From Janthinobacterium lividum (GTDB lineage: Bacteria > Pseudomonadota > Gammaproteobacteria > Steroidobacterales > Steroidobacteraceae): 17,490 nt of DNA. Of this stretch, positions 7,887-17,490 are shown in pieces. The notes under the pieces were generated by a model. The model saw nothing but the letters and a program-made list of their open reading frames with translations, was not told where the DNA came from and did no database searches. Location: the NCBI GenBank assembly GCA_943327025.2, contig CALPVO020000007.1, positions 1 through 17,490 of the forward strand. Reading direction: 5' to 3'. The position numbers were made by a program, and so were the translations under genes. Position 1 is the first letter of the stretch, and every line of letters starts with the position of its first letter.

Positions 7887-10433
7887 ATGCCATGGATTCC
7901 TTTTGCCTTGGGTTGGGCCGCAGTTTCAGCTGCAGGTTTGCAGTGGGCTGCATTGCCACAGTGGCCCTTTTGGCTGCCGGGTTTGCATGGGCCGTATGGG
8001 CTAAGCGCCCTTGGCGGCACTGTGCTCGTACTGCTGTGCGCGCTGCTGGCTGTTGCAGCCGTATTGGCTCGGTTGCGTGGCGTGTGGTGGTGTGCGGTGG
8101 TGCTCGCCACGCTGGCTGGTGTTGCCGCTGGTGGTGCTTCGTTCGTGGTAGCCGGCCACGACGCCTTGGCGCACCGCTGGCCGGTCGCGCAGGAATCGGC
8201 GGTGGTCACGTTCAGCGGTTGCGTCGTTGGTGTACCGCAGGTGTCGCCCGGTCGCGTGCGTTTCGAGTTGGTGCAGTTGCAGGGCGCGGCGCCGGCGCGG
8301 CGGCTGCGGCTTAGTTGGTACCGTTCGCTGGAAACGCCACAAGGCGGTGAGCGCTGGGAGTTCACGGCGAAGTTGCGGGCACCGCGCGGGCTGGTGAACC
8401 CGGGCTCCGGCGACTATGCGTTGGCGCTGCTGCAGGCCGGCGTCGATGCTACCGGTACTGTACGAGAGGCGCAGCGGCTGGCGGGTTCCGGCTGCCTCAA
8501 AGGTTTCGAGCGCTGGCGACAGCCGGTAGACGATGTCCGCGCACTGCTCGCACGGCGGTTGGCGGCGGCAGTGCAGCCGCCGACGTCTTTGGTGCCATCC
8601 TCAGCATCGTCGCAGGCAACATCGCCAGCCTTGCCGCCAGCCTTGCCGCCAGCCTCGCCGCCGTCACTGGCGCAGACCGGGATGGGCTTGCTACTCGCGC
8701 TCGCGCTGGGCTTGCAGGACGAAGTGCCCGACGCCCAATGGCGGGTCTTCTCGGTCACTGGCATCTCGCATCTGGTGGCTATCTCCGGGCTGCATGTCAC
8801 CCTGTTCGCGTGGTTGGTCTTGGTGGCCGTACGTTCCGTGAAGGGGCGAGGGCAACTCGCACCGGCGGCTGGGCTGGGTGCCGGGTCCGCACTGCTCGCC
8901 GTGCTGGCGGCTTTCGCCTATGCACTTCTGGCCGGAGGCAACTTGCCGGCCTTGCGGACAGTGTGGATGTTGGCTTTGGCGCTTACGGTGGTGCGCTTGC
9001 GGCGCCATGCCGGCATTGCCGATGCCTGGGGTGTCGCCTTGGTGGGTGCGCTGTGGCTGGACCCGTTTGCCGCAGCGTCTTTGGGGTTCTGGTTGTCCTT
9101 CGGCGCGGTGGGTGCCCTAGTGTGGTCCGACGCTGGGCGCCCGGTAGTGGCAACGCACTTCATGGCACCTACTGCCGTACCCACGTCCGCTACCTGGCGG
9201 CGCGTGGTAACTCATGCGGGCCCGTTCCTCACCGCCCAATGGGTAGTCACGCTGGTGCTCGCGCCCCTGTTGGCCGCTTCCGTCGGCTTGCCGGCTTGGG
9301 TGAGTTTGCCGGTGAATGCCATTGCCATTCCGTTGTTTTCGGTGGGTTTGGTGCCGGCCGTGCTGTTAGCCACGGCTGGTGTGGCTGTGGCACCACTCGC
9401 TATGGCAGGGTGGGTTCAAGGCGTCGCCACTGCGCTCGGCGCTTGCGTGGTTGCGTTGCAGTGGTGCTCGGCGCTGCCCGGCGTTCACTGGTCTCCCGCG
9501 GCGCCGGGTGTGTTGGCAACGGTCGTGGCGTTGGCTACGGCACTTTTGGCGTGCTCACCGCTGCTGTCGCGGCGGGCACGAGCGGTCGCGGCCGTCTCCT
9601 GTGCTGTCGTTCTGCTTTGGCCGGCGCCACGGCCGGCCGAGGGTGGCTTCCATTTGCAGGTGCTGGACGTCGGGCAGGGCAGCGCCGCGGTCATTGAAAC
9701 CGCCCACCATGCGCTCGTGTTCGACCCCGGTCCCGCGTATGGCCCGGAGGCCGATGCGGGCGGACGGGTGGTAGTTCCGTTCTTGCGCGCCAGCGGTTGG
9801 CATGCGGTGGCGGCGGTGGTGGTGAGCCACGCGGACGCAGACCACTCGGCGGGCCTCGGGCAGGTGCTGCAGCGCTTCCCCAAGGCTGCCGTCTGGTGGG
9901 GAGGCGATGGCGGCGCCGCGGCGCATGGTCGGCACCCGTGCCGTGCCGGGCTGCAATGGCGGCTCGATGGCGTGGAGTTCACCTTCCTGCACCCCGGCCC
10001 GGCAGCCGAGCGCGACGATAACTCGGGCTCCTGTGTGCTGCTGGTACGGGCGGCGGGACGGGCGGCCCTGTTGCTGGCAGACATTCCACGGCGCATTGAA
10101 GACCAGCTCATCGCTGCAGGGCCGTTGCCCATCGATATCGTGCTGGTGGCCCATCATGGCAGCGCCACGGCTTCTGGTGAGGCTTTGCGCGCGGCAACGC
10201 GGGTGGTGGAGGGCGGGCACGCAGTGGTCTCGGCGGGGTACCGCAACCGCTGGGGGTTCCCCAAGCCTGCGGTGCGCGCTGGCTGGCGGGACGCCGGCAG
10301 AGAGGTTTGGGTCACGGCCGAGGAGGGTGCCGTGCAGTTTCAAGTGCAGCCCAGCGGGGCGCTGCAAGTCTTGCCATCGCGCCGTTTGGCGCCGCGATGG
10401 TGGCGGCCTGCGGCACCTGTCGCTTTTCCGTAG
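7887..10433 (+). CDS. comEC: ComEC/Rec2 DNA-uptake channel protein
   Basis: ComEC forms the inner-membrane channel through which single-stranded DNA enters the cytoplasm in natural transformation. The 848-residue protein has the full domain set. N-terminal membrane helices are followed by an OB-like region (about 95-200) ending in LVNPGSGDYALALLQAGV. A competence membrane domain (about 265-530) carries SVTGISHLVAISGLHVTLF. A C-terminal metallo-beta-lactamase-like domain (from about 589) has LDVGQGSA, VSHADADHSAGL (about 644-655) and LVAHHGSATASG (about 752-763). The metal-binding SHADADH pattern is complete, so the nuclease-like domain may be active. A Pro/Ala/Ser-rich linker at about 230-262 contains a 12-base DNA repeat. 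The ribosome site before ATG is weak. Its place between the Lol and ExbB genes is an arrangement I associate with xanthomonad-like bacteria. Confidence 0.93.
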   Translation: MPWIPFALGWAAVSAAGLQWAALPQWPFWLPGLHGPYGLSALGGTVLVLLCALLAVAAVLARLRGVWWCAVVLATLAGVAAGGASFVVAGHDALAHRWPVAQESAVVTFSGCVVGVPQVSPGRVRFELVQLQGAAPARRLRLSWYRSLETPQGGERWEFTAKLRAPRGLVNPGSGDYALALLQAGVDATGTVREAQRLAGSGCLKGFERWRQPVDDVRALLARRLAAAVQPPTSLVPSSASSQATSPALPPALPPASPPSLAQTGMGLLLALALGLQDEVPDAQWRVFSVTGISHLVAISGLHVTLFAWLVLVAVRSVKGRGQLAPAAGLGAGSALLAVLAAFAYALLAGGNLPALRTVWMLALALTVVRLRRHAGIADAWGVALVGALWLDPFAAASLGFWLSFGAVGALVWSDAGRPVVATHFMAPTAVPTSATWRRVVTHAGPFLTAQWVVTLVLAPLLAASVGLPAWVSLPVNAIAIPLFSVGLVPAVLLATAGVAVAPLAMAGWVQGVATALGACVVALQWCSALPGVHWSPAAPGVLATVVALATALLACSPLLSRRARAVAAVSCAVVLLWPAPRPAEGGFHLQVLDVGQGSAAVIETAHHALVFDPGPAYGPEADAGGRVVVPFLRASGWHAVAAVVVSHADADHSAGLGQVLQRFPKAAVWWGGDGGAAAHGRHPCRAGLQWRLDGVEFTFLHPGPAAERDDNSGSCVLLVRAAGRAALLLADIPRRIEDQLIAAGPLPIDIVLVAHHGSATASGEALRAATRVVEGGHAVVSAGYRNRWGFPKPAVRAGWRDAGREVWVTAEEGAVQFQVQPSGALQVLPSRRLAPRWWRPAAPVAFP
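8625..8660 (+). repeat. 12-bp tandem repeat in comEC, three units
   Basis: Units CCAGCCTTGCCG at 8625-8636 and 8637-8648 are identical, and the third (8649-8660) has one change (T to C). They encode the Pro-Ala-Leu-Pro-rich linker between the OB-like and membrane domains of ComEC. Gain or loss of a unit would keep the reading frame. Confidence 0.8.
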
Positions 10434-11693: not shown

Positions 11694-13472
11694 ATGGCAC
11701 GCCCCGGCGAGATTCCCATTCCGGTCACCAACTTCGCATTGGCGGACAAGCCCATGCTGGTGTGGAAACGTTTGCTGGGCTATGCGCGCCCGCACTGGGC
11801 CATGTTCGCGCTTGGTGTGTTCGGCATGGCGCTGTTCGCCAGTGTGGACACGGCCATGGCGTGGTGGGTGAAGAAGTTTCTGGATGGTGCTTTTGTCGAG
11901 CAAGACCCCACCACCTTGCTCATTGTGCCCGGCGGGCTCATTGTGCTGTTCGCGGTACGCGGCATTGGCGACTATTTGTCCAGCTACGCGCCCGGTTATG
12001 TTGGCCGCAAGGTCATCCAGAAGCTGCGTGGCGATTTGTTTCGCCACTACTTGGACCTGCCCACGGCTTATTACGACCGTGAGACCGGCGGGTCGCTGCT
12101 GTCGCGGCTGACGTTCAACACGGAGTTGGTGGCGGAAGCCGCCACGAATGCTGTCACGGTGTTCATCCGTGACACGCTAACCATCATCGGGTTGCTGTGC
12201 TACATCTTCTGGCTGAACTGGCGGTTGGCGGCATTCGCTTTCCTCATTTCGCCGGTCATCGCCACGCTCATCCGCATCGTGAACCGTGCGTTCCGTCGGT
12301 ACAGCACGCGTATTCAGGGCTCCATGGGCGATGTTACGCGCGTCGCCAAGGAAGCCATTGATGGTCACCGCTTGGTGAAGGTGTTCAACGCGCAGGAGCA
12401 TCAGGCGGCGCAGTTCGCCGAAGTGAACGAACGTAACCGCTTCCAGAATATGAAGCTTATTCAGGCGCGTTCATTCAGTAACCCCACCGTGCAGTTCATC
12501 ACCGCTATCGCTTTGTCGGGTGTGCTGTATGTCGCTATCCGCGGCGTGCTGAAGAACGAAATGACGGTAGGTGCATTCATGTCGTTCCTCACGGGCCTCA
12601 TGATGATTACAGCGCCGCTGCGTCGTTTGGTGCAGGTGTTCGGGCCGCTGCAGCAGGGCATTGCCGCTGGCGCTAGCGTCTTTGAGATGCTCGACACGCC
12701 CATCGAGGACCGCGGCGGCACACGGCCCTTGGTGCGCGCTGTCGGCGAGGTGGAATTCCGCGATGTGCGCTTCACCTACGACGCCGACAAGGGCGAGGTG
12801 TTGAAGGGCGTTTCGTTCCAGGCGCATGCCGGACAAACAGTCGCCATCGTTGGTCGTTCGGGCGGTGGCAAGACCACGCTCGTGGGCATGCTGCCGCGCT
12901 TCCACGACCCAGAGCCCGGTGCCGTGCTGCTGGATGGCCATGACGTTCGCGAGTATTCGCGCGTGGCACTGCGCAACAACGTCAGTCTCGTCAGCCAGGA
13001 TGTCATTCTGGTGAACGGTTCTATTCGCGAAAACATCATCTACAGTACGACCGATGCGACCGACGAACAGGTGCGTGCTGCGGCCCGTGCCGCGCACGTG
13101 CTGGAGTTCGCCGAAGCACTGCCGCAAGGTCTGGATTCCCCTGTGGGCGACCGCGGAGCCTTGCTGTCAGGCGGGCAAAAGCAGCGCATAGCCATTGCGC
13201 GTGCGCTGCTGAAGAACGCGCCTGTGCTCATTTTGGATGAAGCCACCAGTGCGCTAGACACTGAGTCGGAACACATCATTCAAGAAGCGCTGGAACAACT
13301 GAAGCGCGGCCGTACCACCCTGGTCATTGCACATCGCTTGTCCACCATCGAACATGCGGACCTGATCGTGGTGGTGGACGAAGGCCGTTGCCTGGAGCAA
13401 GGCACGCATGCGGAACTGCTCGCGCGCGGTGGCGCTTATGCGGCGCTCCACCGGATGCGCTTCGACGCGTGA
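11694..13472 (+). CDS. msbA: Lipid A export permease/ATP-binding protein MsbA
   Basis: MsbA flips lipid A-core across the inner membrane. The 592-residue half-transporter has a six-helix membrane domain (about 20-330) and a C-terminal ATPase domain. ATPase motifs are Walker A GRSGGGKTT (387-395), signature LSGGQKQR (491-498), Walker B VLILDEATSALD (511-522, catalytic Glu516) and H-loop IAHRLST (His547). Membrane-domain segments such as DLPTAYYDRETGGSLLSRLT and VKVFNAQEHQ match the MsbA coupling regions, and EDRGGTRPL precedes the ATPase domain as in MsbA. A GGGGAGAA run ending in the exbD stop gives a good ribosome site. The adjacent lpxK makes MsbA the best call over other exporters of this class. 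Its stop overlaps the lpxK GTG start (GTGA). Confidence 0.95.
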   Translation: MARPGEIPIPVTNFALADKPMLVWKRLLGYARPHWAMFALGVFGMALFASVDTAMAWWVKKFLDGAFVEQDPTTLLIVPGGLIVLFAVRGIGDYLSSYAPGYVGRKVIQKLRGDLFRHYLDLPTAYYDRETGGSLLSRLTFNTELVAEAATNAVTVFIRDTLTIIGLLCYIFWLNWRLAAFAFLISPVIATLIRIVNRAFRRYSTRIQGSMGDVTRVAKEAIDGHRLVKVFNAQEHQAAQFAEVNERNRFQNMKLIQARSFSNPTVQFITAIALSGVLYVAIRGVLKNEMTVGAFMSFLTGLMMITAPLRRLVQVFGPLQQGIAAGASVFEMLDTPIEDRGGTRPLVRAVGEVEFRDVRFTYDADKGEVLKGVSFQAHAGQTVAIVGRSGGGKTTLVGMLPRFHDPEPGAVLLDGHDVREYSRVALRNNVSLVSQDVILVNGSIRENIIYSTTDATDEQVRAAARAAHVLEFAEALPQGLDSPVGDRGALLSGGQKQRIAIARALLKNAPVLILDEATSALDTESEHIIQEALEQLKRGRTTLVIAHRLSTIEHADLIVVVDEGRCLEQGTHAELLARGGAYAALHRMRFDA

Positions 13473-14581
13473 GCCTGCTGCCCACCAAGCGCGCGCTGGA
13501 AGTCTGGGTGCTGGGCGCCTGGTACGACGGTGCTACGCGCACTTTGGCGCAGCGATGTTTTACTGCCGCGCTGGCGCCGCTGGGTTGGTTGGTGGCGTTG
13601 GTTGCGCAAAGGCGGCGGCAACGGGCGCAGGTGTTGGCCACTCAGTTAGCTAACCGCGAGGCTCCTGCAGCAGGGCATCTGGCGCTCGGTACAACCGCGT
13701 TGCCACCCGTCATCGTCGTGGGCAATCTCACCGTAGGCGGTACCGGCAAAACGCCGGTCGTGGCTTGGCTCGCGGCGCAACTGCGCGCGCAGGGCAAGCG
13801 CGTGGGCGTGGTGTCGCGCGGCTATGGCCGCAGTGCCGCTAGTGCGCGGCGTGTGGTGCCCGGCGATAGCGCCGTACTGGTAGGCGATGAGCCTGCGTGG
13901 CTTGCGGCTACTATCGGCTGTCCGGTAGCGGTGGGGCAGGACCGCGTAGCGGCTGTCGGGTTGCTGGCTGGCGATGTAGACGTGGTGCTGGCGGACGACG
14001 GTCTGCAGCACCACGCCCTGCCGCGGTGCCTCGAAGTGATCGTGGTGGATGCCACCCGCGCCGCGCCTTTGGGCAACGGCCGTTGTCTGCCCGCGGGGCC
14101 GCTTCGCGAACTACCGGGCTTTGTTGGTCCGGCGCAGGTGGTGTTGTTCAATCATGGGGCGGCGCCTGCGGCACTGTTGGCTACGGCCGCTGTGCCTGCG
14201 TGGGCCAGCACTGCCACGGCGCTGCATTTCGCCGTGCAGCCACAGGTGGCTGTCAATTTAGTTACCGGTGAATCCCGGTCCCTCGCGTCGTTCACGGATA
14301 CCGTGGCAGTAGCGGGCATCGGGCATCCGGAGCGGTTTTTCCATGCACTACAGGCGGCCGGCGCGGGGTTGCGCCAAACCTGCGGCTTTGCGGACCACCA
14401 CGCGTTCACGGCGGCGGACCTCGCGCCCTTCGCCGGCATGCCGCTGCTGATGACCGCGAAAGATGCCGTAAAGTGTGCGGCGTTTGCTGCGCCGAACTGG
14501 TGGCGAGTAGAGGCCGTCGTGGCGTTCGCACCGGGGGAGGGCGAACGCCTGCTCCGCGCGGCGCTGTCTGCGCTGGAGTGA
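13469..14581 (+). CDS. lpxK: Tetraacyldisaccharide 4'-kinase LpxK
   Basis: LpxK adds the 4'-phosphate to the lipid A disaccharide precursor at the inner membrane, using ATP. From the GTG that overlaps the msbA stop the protein has 370 residues, somewhat longer than the usual 320-345. The N-terminal LEVWVLGAWYDGATRTLAQR and hydrophobic FTAALAPLGWLVALVAQ match the membrane-associated start of LpxK. The P-loop region is VVGNLTVGGTGKTPVVAW (83-100), followed by VVSRGYG (114-120) and LADDGLQHHAL (174-184) with Asp176, Asp177 and His181. ADHHAFTAADLAPF near residue 312 is another family landmark. After the DDGLQH motif the usual Arg-Asp reads Arg-Cys (186-187). An ATG further upstream is in frame but would lie inside msbA, so GTG is preferred. 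Confidence 0.93.
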   Translation: MSLLPTKRALEVWVLGAWYDGATRTLAQRCFTAALAPLGWLVALVAQRRRQRAQVLATQLANREAPAAGHLALGTTALPPVIVVGNLTVGGTGKTPVVAWLAAQLRAQGKRVGVVSRGYGRSAASARRVVPGDSAVLVGDEPAWLAATIGCPVAVGQDRVAAVGLLAGDVDVVLADDGLQHHALPRCLEVIVVDATRAAPLGNGRCLPAGPLRELPGFVGPAQVVLFNHGAAPAALLATAAVPAWASTATALHFAVQPQVAVNLVTGESRSLASFTDTVAVAGIGHPERFFHALQAAGAGLRQTCGFADHHAFTAADLAPFAGMPLLMTAKDAVKCAAFAAPNWWRVEAVVAFAPGEGERLLRAALSALE

Positions 14582-14640
14582 CTTCGAAGTGCGACGTTGA
14601 ACTGGGTCCGTTTTCGGCCCGGTGTTGATGGAGAGGAACC

Positions 14641-14829
14641 ATGGATACCAAGTTGCTTGATGTTCTGGCGTGCCCGGCTTGCAAGGGGCCCCTGCATTTC
14701 CTGCGCGAACCCGCGGTGCTGGTGTGTCGTGCGGACCGGCTGGCCTTTCCCATCCGCGACGGCATTCCCGTGATGCTGGAAGAAGAGGCCAAGGTGCTGG
14801 CCAGCGACGACCCGTGGCTGAAGGCCTGA
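14641..14829 (+). CDS. Trm112/YcaR-family small protein
   Basis: This 62-residue protein belongs to the family of E. coli YcaR (UPF0434), related to the eukaryotic methyltransferase activator Trm112. It has LLDVLACPACKGPLHF with the C-x2-C pair (Cys11, Cys14), one more cysteine (Cys29), and the family ending AFPIRDGIPVMLEEEAKVL. The role in bacteria is not firmly known. It is very often found between lpxK and kdsB, as here. AGAGGAA four bases before ATG is a strong ribosome site. It lies 59 bases after lpxK and 73 before kdsB, a looser spacing than the rest of the run. Confidence 0.92.
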   Translation: MDTKLLDVLACPACKGPLHFLREPAVLVCRADRLAFPIRDGIPVMLEEEAKVLASDDPWLKA

Positions 14830-14841
14830 GTTGAATGTCGG

Positions 14842-14881
14842 ATTTGCAGGCTGTATTTGAAGCTTGCATTTGCAGGCCTGC
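14842..14881. repeat. Short direct repeats and a palindrome between trm112 and kdsB
   Basis: ATTTGCAGGC occurs at 14842-14851 and 14868-14877, 26 bases apart. The second copy runs into the 10-base palindrome GCAGGCCTGC (14872-14881). This lies just before the AAGGA ribosome site of kdsB. It may be a regulator site or leader structure; the function is unknown. Confidence 0.4.
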
Positions 14882-14902
14882 GCTAAAGGATTGAACACCG
14901 CC

Positions 14903-15664
14903 ATGACCTTCCGCGTCGTTATTCCCGCCCGCTATCCTTCCACGCGTTTACCAGGCAAGCCGCTGCGTATGCTGGCCGGCAAGCCGATGGTGCAGCATGT
15001 TTACGAACGTGCCTGCGCTTCAGGTGCGGCTGAAGTGATTGTGGCCACCGATGACGACCGGGTGGTGCAAGCCTGTCTGGCCTTTGGTGCGCCGGTGCTC
15101 ATGACAGACCCGAACCACCCTTCCGGAACGGACCGGTTGGCGGAAGTAGCGGCGCTATGCGGCTGGAACGATGAACAGATAGTCGTGAACGTGCAAGGTG
15201 ACGAGCCTCTCCTGCCTCCCGCAAATGTGGCGCAAGCGGCGCAGTTGCTGGTGGCGGACGCCGGCGCCGCCATTGCCACGCTCGCCACGCCCATCTGCAG
15301 CCTTCACGAATTCATGGACCCGAATGCCGTGAAGGTGGTGGCCGCTGCCAATGGGCGTGCGCTGTACTTCAGTCGCGCGCCCATTCCATGGCCGCGCGAT
15401 ACCGCACCGGCTGGTTTTGGCAGCCAGACTAGCTTCGGGGCGGCCTTGCGGCATGTGGGGCTGTACGCCTACCGCGTGGGTGCCTTGCGACAGTTGGCCG
15501 CGTGGGCCCCTTCGCCGCTGGAAACCGCAGAGCGTTTGGAGCAACTGCGCGCCATGGAAAATGGCCTGGCCATTGCCGTGGCGGTTGCAGTGGAAGCGCC
15601 CGGCCCGGGTGTGGACACCGAAGCGGATGCGCTGGCGGTGGAGCGGCTTTTAGCCGGCAGATGA
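14903..15664 (+). CDS. kdsB: 3-deoxy-manno-octulosonate cytidylyltransferase KdsB
   Basis: KdsB makes CMP-KDO from CTP and KDO, the activated sugar placed on lipid A to start the lipopolysaccharide core; it acts in the cytoplasm. The 253-residue protein is of normal length. It has the nucleotide-binding VIPARYPSTRLPGKPL (5-20), then VATDDDRV, NHPSGTDRLAEV and VVNVQGDEPLLPP, all standard KdsB blocks. The ATG at 14903 gives the usual N-terminus; an ATG 39 bases upstream is in frame but adds residues unlike the family. AAGGA lies 12 bases upstream. The last 12 codons and the start of the stop codon are repeated exactly 1,544 bases downstream, so the 3' end seems to have been the target of an insertion. 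The reading frame is intact. Confidence 0.95.
   Translation: MTFRVVIPARYPSTRLPGKPLRMLAGKPMVQHVYERACASGAAEVIVATDDDRVVQACLAFGAPVLMTDPNHPSGTDRLAEVAALCGWNDEQIVVNVQGDEPLLPPANVAQAAQLLVADAGAAIATLATPICSLHEFMDPNAVKVVAAANGRALYFSRAPIPWPRDTAPAGFGSQTSFGAALRHVGLYAYRVGALRQLAAWAPSPLETAERLEQLRAMENGLAIAVAVAVEAPGPGVDTEADALAVERLLAGR
15624..15662 (+). repeat. Putative attachment-site repeat, copy 1 (kdsB 3' end)
   Basis: These 39 bases are identical to 17168-17206 by base-by-base comparison. They code for the C-terminal ALAVERLLAGR of KdsB and stop at the first bases of its TGA. Position 40 differs (G here, A in copy 2), so the second copy would end kdsB with TAA. A long exact repeat at a gene's 3' end is typical of att sites used by tyrosine integrases. 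Confidence 0.72.
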
Positions 15665-15672
15665 GTTGCCGC

Positions 15673-15688
15673 GCAGCCGTTACGCTGC
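15673..15688. terminator. Weak hairpin between kdsB and the nucleotidyltransferase gene
   Basis: GCAGC (15673-15677) pairs with GCTGC (15684-15688) around CGTTAC, with possible flanking G-C pairs. It lies in the 28-base gap between two converging genes, where a terminator for both is expected. No strong T-run follows on either strand (TTCTATT on plus), so the assignment is weak. Confidence 0.3.
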
Positions 15689-15692
15689 GGTT

Positions 15693-16406
15693 CTATTCCA
15701 ATCTTGCTAATGTCAGGAGTCTGCGCCGCAACATCGGCACTCTGGCCTGACTGCCTGCGTCAGTTGGCAAGTGCCCGGCGAGTGCAAGAACGAAACTTGA
15801 ATTTGACATGAGATTTGCCATCGACTCACTCAAATAATTGCGCACAGCGAGCGGCGCTGAGTGAACTTCTTCCTCGAGCTCCGGTCGTCCATCCACGACG
15901 GTCACCAAATCCTCTAGGTCATGGCTCGCCCAAAAGTCACCGCGGCCACGGTCAGAAAAGGCATCGAGCTTGGTGGCAAGAAAGAGCGGTGCAGTTATCA
16001 AGCGAATTCGCTGCTCCGAGTTGAGCTCGAAGGGTTGTGCGGTCTCCGCAGCCACTGAGTACCATCGATTGCTGAAGCCGAGAATTGTCGGGTCAGTGGG
16101 TACTACATCTAACTGCAGGCCATCCGCAATCCACCGGCAGAGAGGGGCGTCTTCACTGCGCGATTGACGAAAACCCTTCTTTTCAAGTTCCGCTGAAATG
16201 GTGTAATAGTCGCCGAGTGTTGCGACTTGCGTGACAACATCTACATCAATTGTCATACGAACGGTCTGTGAACGAACGCTGGTTACCAGTAAGCCAGTGG
16301 CGCATCCGCCCACGAACACGAATTTTTCCGCGAGCGCGCCGAGACGTATGACAGTGTCGAGCAGCAACACCCGGTTGGCGTCGGCACCCAAGTCACGCAT
16401 ATTCAT
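15693..16406 (-). CDS. Nucleotidyltransferase, AbiEii-like (putative toxin)
   Basis: The 237-residue protein has the core of the minimal DNA-polymerase-beta-type nucleotidyltransferase fold. FVFVGGCATGLLV holds the Gly-Gly (33-34), MTIDVDVVTQ the metal-binding Asp54 and Asp56, and LQLDVVPTD a likely third Asp (Asp100). LFLATKLDAFSDRG (Lys146) and ASHDLEDLVTVVDGR (160-174) are like the Lys and Asp-Leu segments of AbiEii/AbiGii-type proteins. Enzymes of this class block growth by adding nucleotides to RNA or GTP-related targets, as toxins or phage-abortive factors; the target here is unknown. The start ATG overlaps the stop of the winged-helix gene by 4 bases, the usual antitoxin-first order. 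All putative catalytic residues are present. A housekeeping nucleotidyltransferase is possible but less likely given the island setting. Confidence 0.78.
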   Translation of the reverse strand: MNMRDLGADANRVLLLDTVIRLGALAEKFVFVGGCATGLLVTSVRSQTVRMTIDVDVVTQVATLGDYYTISAELEKKGFRQSRSEDAPLCRWIADGLQLDVVPTDPTILGFSNRWYSVAAETAQPFELNSEQRIRLITAPLFLATKLDAFSDRGRGDFWASHDLEDLVTVVDGRPELEEEVHSAPLAVRNYLSESMANLMSNSSFVLALAGHLPTDAGSQARVPMLRRRLLTLARLE

Positions 16407-16975
16407 TGCAGAAGCATCTCGAGATGTTCTATTGCTAGCGCGCGCTCACGCGCCTGACCAATTCGAAGTGCATCGAATAGCGCTAGCATTGCGTATAAGC
16501 GCGTGTCCGATCGAGCGGCCTCGGTAGCCCGGGGGTAGAGTGGCATGACGGAGCCTCCACGTTGCCTCCCCTCCGGGTCTGGCCATACAGGAGGTAGTTC
16601 GTTGCCTATGACTAGCAGTGAGTTAAGCGGAGGGGCAGCATGGGCGGTGGGCATACCGACCGTGATTTCGCCTCGGACTGCCGGGTAAGCAAAGGGGGCG
16701 CCGTTCAGCAAAAAGCAGCGAAGCGAGGGGAGGATGGGCATCACTTGCCCATCCAGCGTAGCCACTAGTCTGGCCGCGATAAGGCGCTGCGTGGCGGCGT
16801 GCGCTTCGAACGGTGAAAGTCTGAGCGCCTTCCCCAAGACAGCGAAACTCACCCGCTCGGCCCCTAGTAGATGCAATTTCAGAGCAACGACGAGGTCCTG
16901 AGGCTTCAGAGTCCATTGTCGATGGGATGCCCGCCGCATTGCGGCGTATTCAACAGGTCTTGAGGTGGTTGGCAT
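16403..16975 (-). CDS. Winged-helix DNA-binding protein (putative antitoxin/regulator)
   Basis: This 190-residue protein is the first gene of a two-gene unit with the nucleotidyltransferase. Residues about 22-75 read as a winged helix-turn-helix: LKPQDLVVALKLHLLGA, then VSFAVLGKALRLSPFEAHAA with a recognition helix, then RLIAARLVATLDGQV as the wing. The rest holds GAPFAYPAVRGEITVGMPTA, PPVWPDPEGRQRGGSV and LYAMLALFDALRIGQARERA, which I recall as conserved blocks in proteins paired with such nucleotidyltransferases, though I cannot name a family. By analogy with AbiEi/AbiEii it may repress the operon through the palindrome at its start codon and neutralise the toxin. It does not look like canonical AbiEi throughout. 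There is no ribosome site before ATG 16975; the leader would be very short. ATG 16939 is an alternative start but also lacks a good site. Confidence 0.72.
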   Translation of the reverse strand: MPTTSRPVEYAAMRRASHRQWTLKPQDLVVALKLHLLGAERVSFAVLGKALRLSPFEAHAATQRLIAARLVATLDGQVMPILPSLRCFLLNGAPFAYPAVRGEITVGMPTAHAAPPLNSLLVIGNELPPVWPDPEGRQRGGSVMPLYPRATEAARSDTRLYAMLALFDALRIGQARERALAIEHLEMLLQ

Positions 16976-16996
16976 ATGCTGTATGCATATAGCATA
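16975..16996. promoter_or_regulatory. Near-palindromic operator of the regulator-nucleotidyltransferase operon
   Basis: The 22 bases have arms TATGCTGTATG and CATATAGCATA that pair at 20 of 22 positions, with a perfect TATGCATA centre. They cover the -10 box and end on the first base of the regulator's ATG. A dimeric winged-helix protein bound here would block transcription, so autorepression by the product of the first gene is the natural guess. Confidence 0.6.
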
Positions 16997-17015
16997 CGGC
17001 AGGATTTTAAGTCAA
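16986..17015 (-). promoter_or_regulatory. Promoter of the regulator-nucleotidyltransferase operon
   Basis: On the minus strand TTGACT (17015-17010, 5 of 6 consensus) and TATATG (16991-16986, 4 of 6) are 18 bases apart. Transcription would begin roughly 4-6 bases before the ATG at 16975, giving a leaderless or nearly leaderless message. This agrees with the absence of a ribosome site. Confidence 0.55.
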
Positions 17016-17167
17016 CGGCGGTCTACTTCAGGTCGTGTATTGGCGCCGGCCGTGGTACCGGGCACGTGGACGTTCACCTGGGCCCATGACGGCACTGATG
17101 TGGCGGCATTGCTATGTGGGCGCCTCACGCTACGCGCCGAAGGCGAGCCGGACAAGACCGAACACGA

Positions 17168-17206
17168 CGGATGCGCTGGCGGTGGAGCGGCTTTTAGCCG
17201 GCAGAT
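17168..17206 (+). repeat. Putative attachment-site repeat, copy 2
   Basis: An exact 39-base copy of the kdsB 3' end (15624-15662), in the same orientation. Read in the kdsB frame it ends in AGA TAA, so it would still close the gene properly. The DNA upstream of it is not kdsB, so it is not a duplicated gene but only the short tail expected of an att site. Confidence 0.72.
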
Positions 17207-17441
17207 AAGACAAGGCCTGCTCCAAAATTCAGTATCCGCACGCCGGATATTCATTCCTTACTGCGGCTAAAACTCCCAGCTTTGGTACCCCCAAGGTGTC
17301 GGGAATCTTTACGCCTGCGGCACCGCCAATCTCAAGACGGGTTCCCTTGCATTGATTGAGTAGGGGTTTTTACGTATGGCATTTTTCTTGCTTCATGTGT
17401 GCGAGGTGAGTCAGTACGCGTTTTAAGTATTTAATACGAAC

Positions 17442-17487: not shown

Positions 17488-17490
17488 TGC

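Follow-up and report, generated by a model that had tools for sequence, protein, structure and literature searches.

We analysed a 17,490-nt stretch of DNA from Janthinobacterium lividum (assembly GCA_943327025.2, contig CALPVO020000007.1; referred to below as the window), in which a pair of genes matching the candidate-defence family PDC-M21 lies directly behind kdsB, between two copies of that gene's 3' end. Our preferred reading, which we consider probable, makes the segment a minimal integrative element that is not autonomous and resembles a cis-mobilizable element (CIME), consisting of a PDC-M21A/B module, with the last 39 bp of kdsB as its attachment (att) site and an integrase that acted in trans or has been lost. 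The window is one entire contig (C7, 17490 bases), so that its right flank stops at 17490. The features on which the argument rests are the following.

14903..15664, plus strand: kdsB (CMP-KDO synthetase), the target gene (NF003952, 1.1e-82; TIGR00466, 1.8e-79; both model scores from a translation begun at an upstream TTG, 14864)
15624..15662, plus strand: left (inner) repeat copy, within the kdsB 3' end (from sequence comparison)
15672..15689, plus strand: terminator-like hairpin inside the insert, immediately after kdsB (weak; the scan gave 2 sites of this kind, against a mean of 1.7 in shuffles)
15693..16406, minus strand: M21B, AbiEii-like nucleotidyltransferase, putative toxin (PADLOC PDC-M21B, 1.3e-62)
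16403..16975, minus strand: M21A, putative antitoxin/regulator, sharing 4 nt with the start of M21B (PADLOC PDC-M21A, 5.3e-34)
16981..16997, minus strand: palindrome GTATGCTATATGCATAC immediately upstream of M21A, putative operator (TATGC..GCATA form)
16998..17167, no strand: right non-coding arm of the insert (from a sequence search)
17168..17206, plus strand: right (outer) repeat copy, the original kdsB 3' end (followed by TAA and by the flank found behind kdsB in a sister species, G003)
17233..17249, plus strand: hairpin behind the right repeat copy (from the sequence; the terminator scan lists the minus strand only)

The direct repeat is exact over 39 bp (15624-15662 and 17168-17206, 1544 nt from start to start), extends to 42 nt if one mismatch is allowed, and consists of two leading bases, the last 12 codons of kdsB and the first base of its stop codon. 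A chance repeat was considered and rejected, because 39 bp exceeds every other exact direct repeat in the window (the runner-up, of 21 nt, is a local tandem repeat at 8623/8635); in the entire assembly the 39-mer occurs twice, even with up to three mismatches tolerated. The bracketed insert (15665-17167) has a G+C content of 0.576, against 0.646 for the remainder of the window (0.54-0.61 and 0.58-0.72, respectively, in sliding windows), and holds two minus-strand genes. The first-pass annotation of this DNA, which had described an exact repeat of the last kdsB codons around a lower-GC two-gene cassette, was thus correct on the repeat, on its positions and spacing, and on what it encloses.

Comparison of the window's own genome (G000) with three other genomes of the genus (G001, G002 and G003) reveals the corresponding empty site. 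In G003, kdsB (95% protein identity) ends in a single copy of the repeat (one mismatch), then TAA, and is followed by the same sequence that stands behind the right copy in the window (89% nucleotide identity over 246 aligned positions); the two are identical from the GCGCTGG in the repeat to 38 nt past it. Because kdsB of G003 runs straight into the sequence at 17207, the right copy represents the original kdsB end. The kdsB reading frame is intact across the left copy, its stop codon TGA being completed by bases of the insert. The 39-bp repeat is a genuine insertion scar. The first-pass annotation had predicted just such an empty site, with one repeat copy leading into 17207, and its proposal that the insertion restored the kdsB 3' end stands; its attribution of the event to an integrase acting at kdsB did not find the same support, since both matches to the tyrosine recombinase family PF00589 in G000 have counterparts elsewhere in the genus. 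The finding that it had named as fatal to its proposal, presence of the two genes in all strains without repeats, is not what the genus shows: G002 and G003 have no M21B match. The hairpin at 17233..17249 occurs in G003 directly behind kdsB, with a run of T after it, and is probably the native kdsB terminator, now parted from its gene by the insert. Among the 21 genomes searched, the right flank of the window was found in G000 and G003 only, and the right arm (16998..17167) had no match outside itself.

An assembler might have produced the same arrangement by joining the occupied and empty alleles of a mixed population through their common 39-mer, and the assembly is indeed fragmented (351 contigs, completeness 75.37) and the repeat is close to the contig end. 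We regard this as hardly credible: positions 16976-17167 have no match elsewhere in the assembly, and the supposed join would therefore link unrelated sequence to kdsB. An identical M21B protein is also on record for a 13,361-base contig, which bears on M21B and not on the junction.

The two genes of the insert (15693-16406 and 16403-16975) form an operon convergent with kdsB. As adjacent genes matching both PADLOC models of the system, they qualify as a PDC-M21 pair, and M21A adjoins M21B in 42 of 43 loci, with that of the window counted. M21B carries the GG pair and the TxDxD residues that are invariant across 36 aligned sequences. The pair resembles AbiE type IV in having a toxin of the nucleotidyltransferase family, a partner gene upstream in the same operon and a weak match to Pfam PF08843 (AbiEii). 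It differs from AbiE in that this match, at 21.1 bits, is below the curated cut-off of 22.5, and in that M21A has neither a Pfam match nor a PADLOC AbiEi match at E up to 1; it therefore does not qualify as AbiE type IV, and a separate AbiE pair neighbours M21 in two loci described below (L155 and L158). The cassette looks like a toxin-antitoxin (TA) or phage-defence pair, M21B and M21A being the predicted toxin and antitoxin, respectively. Three homologues of M21A (P0218, P0223 and P0240) are about 310 residues long, with PF18765 and PF01909 as listed domains; in P0218 and P0223 these form an additional minimal nucleotidyltransferase part at the C terminus, and the fusion may hint at the mode of action of M21A. 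A search of solved structures found no relative (one match, at E 0.38). As to carriage by phages, none of 50,697 phage records matched and viral contigs yielded nothing closely related; 115 of 72,556 plasmid records have matches, all under 60% identity. The TATGC..GCATA form of the palindrome upstream of M21A recurs in 11 of 74 loci, 26 of the 74 have no inverted repeat of at least 6 bp there, and some others have TTCGC/GCGAA inverted repeats close to the start of M21A. Model scans of the insert proteins recognised the two M21 genes alone, neither of them an integrase, as the first-pass annotation had stated.

These properties place the segment close to CIMEs (Pavlovic 2004 and Bellanger 2011, as cited in PMC5704250), which, in the sections of PMC5704250 cited here, have attL/attR flanks, lack integration and transfer genes and occur in tandem with other elements; the related integrative and mobilizable elements are described there as using the 3' ends of tRNA and housekeeping genes. 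The window has both flanking att-type repeats that restore their target (the 39-bp repeat, the intact kdsB frame and the G003 empty site) and an interior without recognised integrase or transfer genes. It differs from CIMEs in that the kdsB unit holds just one TA-type pair, which recurs at unrelated targets with similar size.

We evaluated this recurrence by surveying M21 loci in other genomes. Relatives of M21B were found in 37 of 200 genomes of the family (E <= 1e-3), 33 of 396 of the order (E <= 1e-20) and 29 of 369 of the class (E <= 1e-25), three samples that overlap and that contain the window's own genome. From 76 loci we retained the 68 with at least 250 nt on both flanks (dropping L054, L060, L064, L065, L072, L073, L147 and L193) and looked up to 700 nt out from the M21 pair for exact direct repeats no shorter than 20 bp. 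Such repeats bracket the pair in 17 of the 68 usable loci, against none of 1200 random intervals (maximum, 19 bp). When flanks were mismatched among the 60 loci without a tRNA-Met repeat, 2 of 3540 pairs reached the threshold (maximum, 28 bp), as compared with 9 of the 60 true pairs. The cut excludes L148 and L203 (18 bp each) and L071 and L074 (14 bp), and the survey range excludes L168, which has a tRNA-Ser-like repeat further out than 700 nt.

In 11 of the 17 loci the repeats lie in the 3' parts of tRNA genes. The 3' part of tRNA-Met is the repeat in eight, all from one genus (g18). The tRNA-Gln repeat of L067 is 100% identical over 47 nt to an intact gene in that locus, the tRNA-Arg repeat (L150/L166) is 93% identical over 45 nt to the intact gene of another genome and has an interrupted inner copy, and the outer copy of the tRNA-Cys repeat in L199 lies within an intact tRNA-Cys. 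A second protein-gene target is found in L185, in which about the last 61 codons of a gene that we take, from its motif, to be Rieske-type are duplicated around the M21 pair (12-197 and 1668-1853; 186 nt, 96.8% identity); as with kdsB, the repeat ends inside the stop codon. In L184 the pair lies between 536-nt copies (146-681 and 2325-2860, 98.5% identical) of a sequence that is presumably REP-transposase-like (REP, repetitive extragenic palindromic), and the remaining repeat-bracketed loci (L034, L181 and L200) have no assigned target gene. Outer edges are 1529-1686 nt apart at kdsB, in the eight tRNA-Met loci and in L034, L150 and L181, which together make up 12 of the 17. Of the 13 loci whose target gene could be recognised (kdsB among them), 11 have that gene convergent with M21B, and the tRNA-Gln and tRNA-Cys loci have the opposite orientation. 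Elsewhere, duplicated ends of tRNA and other genes enclose the same pair, which therefore looks like a hitch-hiking unit without its own integrase; the passenger element that the first-pass annotation had suggested is supported by these other targets.

Some of the tRNA-Met loci of g18 are tandem arrays. Six g18 stretches (L152, L155, L156, L158, L160 and L161) have at least three tRNA-Met 3' copies of 43-47 bp in succession, L154 and L157 have two, and L163 has one full and one 24-nt copy; an intact tRNA-Met stands at one end in two genomes (G149, locus L153; G188, locus L157), and none was found in the other g18 stretches. The units between the copies hold M21 pairs, AbiE, Fic-like genes, and HipA with Wadjet jetABCD. 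The AbiE pair, whose unit neighbours M21, was assigned by models in L155 and by a similar translation in L158; the Fic-like gene by models in L156 and by similar translations in L152, L160 and L161; and HipA with jetABCD by models in L156 and by a similar translation in L160. In L155 a PF00589 tyrosine recombinase gene lies 80 nt from a tRNA-Met copy, and in L154 the distance is about 220 nt; the two recombinases are about 31% identical to each other. Shared integrases with passenger units could leave arrays of this kind. They resemble the additive flexible islands and the CIME accretion described in the relevant parts of PMC10872708 and PMC5704250, respectively. The window itself resembles the flexible genomic island fGI-2 of the Methylophilaceae, in which repeated last bases of a tRNA gene mark island growth at one integration site; in the same parts of PMC10872708, that island holds mostly genes of unknown function at tRNA-Lys, whereas the window holds one cassette at a protein gene. 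Integron cassettes and CALINs (clusters of attC sites lacking integron-integrases) are likewise small cassettes in tandem with a recombination site at their boundaries, in some cases with no integrase nearby (as outlined in the part of PMC11389934 cited here); the M21 repeats differ from these in being tRNA or protein-gene 3' ends. Our literature search found no paper text with 'PDC-M21' and no text joining kdsB, integrase and integration site.

The survey also bears on an insertion without any integrase, in which a break at the kdsB 3' end was joined with incoming DNA so as to leave a long target duplication. Nobusato and Kobayashi reportedly proposed long target duplication for restriction-modification genes, which a TA-like pair resembles as a selfish pair, a likeness that counts for this explanation. 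The repeat lengths vary widely (from an exact 20 bp to 186 nt at 96.8%), the targets differ, and no recombinase was found near kdsB within the genus, all of which would fit such a process. The 11 of 17 repeats in tRNA 3' parts, classic integrase targets, argue against it, as do the 43-47 bp repeat common to the array units and the recombinase gene adjoining two of those loci; we judge the explanation unlikely.

Several results weigh against the att-bounded reading that we prefer, beginning with the survey itself. No exact 20-bp repeat was found within 700 nt in 51 of the 68 usable loci, and without the tRNA-Met genus the repeat-bracketed count falls to 9 of 60; because the mismatched-flank control once reached 28 bp, the cases with 20-22 bp (L034, L150 and L181) are not individually beyond chance. 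At kdsB, none of 64 other kdsB loci (viewed over 5 to 12 kb, except for G001, 1677 nt, and G003, 822 nt) has its tail duplicated downstream, and neither of two array integrases used as queries has a relative in the 64 kdsB-downstream stretches. No kdsB-specific integrase was found: G000 (75% complete) has the two PF00589 matches mentioned above, which are presumably XerC and XerD and have similarly scoring counterparts in G001-G003, and PF00239 resolvases were found in none of the four genomes. Integrases adjoining repeat copies were seen only beside tRNA-Met loci. The timing of the insertion at kdsB, treated below, belongs to the same side of the balance.

Two broader roles for kdsB were considered and found no support. 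kdsB is a rare target: the 0 of 64 loci with a duplicated tail gives no backing to a general hotspot in the family. Nor do the carriers support a general tie between M21 and kdsB, as only G000 and G001 among the 37 family carriers have the two side by side. Of 29 other carriers with kdsB positions, 28 have M21 and kdsB on different contigs, in fragmented assemblies that leave room for closeness across a contig break, and one (G013) has them more than 2 Mb apart; G010 and G135 have no kdsB match, and G060, G151, G186 and G189 are not among the listed rows. Separately, we observed dense clusters of at least six PF00589 matches in two genomes (G208:C2:8509-19701 and G141:C93:110771-116675).

The history of the insertion is complicated by G001. 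Over 13403-15661 the genus tree ((G000,G003),G001),G002 is backed by 65 sites, against 32 and 17 for the alternatives. Directly behind kdsB, G001 has a C-terminal remnant of M21B (78% protein identity over 55 residues), and the 1677 nt available there contain no second repeat. Downstream of the remnant are what we take to be other TA-like short frames, and then a presumed glycosyltransferase-like gene; by our reading of the sequence, the frames at L077:1380-1782 look like the end of a PIN toxin and an antitoxin of the Phd type, and more than one TA module may therefore have landed in the kdsB flank. The DNA identity of the remnant to the window (85%) is like that of kdsB (83-86%), which suggests that the insertion is older than the G000/G001 split; synonymous differences (8 in 35 M21B codons versus 88 in 227 kdsB codons) gave p = 0.09. 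The window repeats, however, differ at 0 of 39 sites, whereas between G000 and G001 the tail of kdsB differs at 7 of 39; at that rate, two identical copies would turn up in roughly one case in a thousand (Poisson estimate). With the remnant at the same junction, one recent insertion event cannot explain everything; core-like divergence together with perfect repeats implies that the module was re-inserted, that gene conversion occurred or that G001 acquired a separate insertion.

Two further explanations draw on G001. In one, a larger element at kdsB was deleted down to an addictive TA pair and its att sites; the decayed M21B remnant and the other TA-like frames at kdsB in G001 are in keeping with this, and CIMEs are defined as such remnants in the section of PMC5704250 concerned. 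The similar size of the units at unrelated targets is unlike the outcome of random deletion, though the length of the pair accounts for most of it, and we think decay a rather improbable origin. In the other, the cassette is ancestral, and homology-assisted illegitimate recombination later brought in a right flank with its 39-bp kdsB tail from a relative of the empty type. A left junction common to G001 at core-like divergence, a right flank that among the four genus members was found in G000 and G003 alone, and perfect and hence young repeats would all be accommodated. This scheme nevertheless requires that the join fell by chance at precisely 39 bp within the tail, and it leaves the repeat-bracketed units at other genes unexplained, and we consider it very unlikely.

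Under the preferred reading, that of a CIME-like unit with kdsB as its att site, the cassette would have entered by site-specific recombination, with an integrase supplied in trans or since lost; both the involvement of a recombinase and its action in trans at kdsB are what we infer. Entry would leave the kdsB 3' end rebuilt on the left and, on the right, the original end together with its terminator. The module would then persist because M21A restrains the M21B nucleotidyltransferase. We also infer a self-repressing operon, in which M21A would repress its own promoter through the palindrome at 16981-16997.

A wider proposal, which we put forward tentatively and hold to be doubtful at present, is that PDC-M21 pairs constitute a class of att-bounded modules of about 1.6 kb without a recombinase, moved by many integrases to tRNA and protein-gene 3' ends across bacteria and piling into tandem defence arrays, with kdsB as a new target at which the module has been repeatedly gained and lost. 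If the preferred reading of the kdsB segment is right, a TA or defence pair alone can be the entire content of an integrative element, and such modules could spread and accumulate singly without mobility genes. The kdsB locus supplies defined boundaries, an empty-site control and other targets with which trans-mobilisation can be tested. It also carries a warning: a lone TA pair next to a tRNA or housekeeping gene may be a mobile unit that integrase-based island finders overlook.

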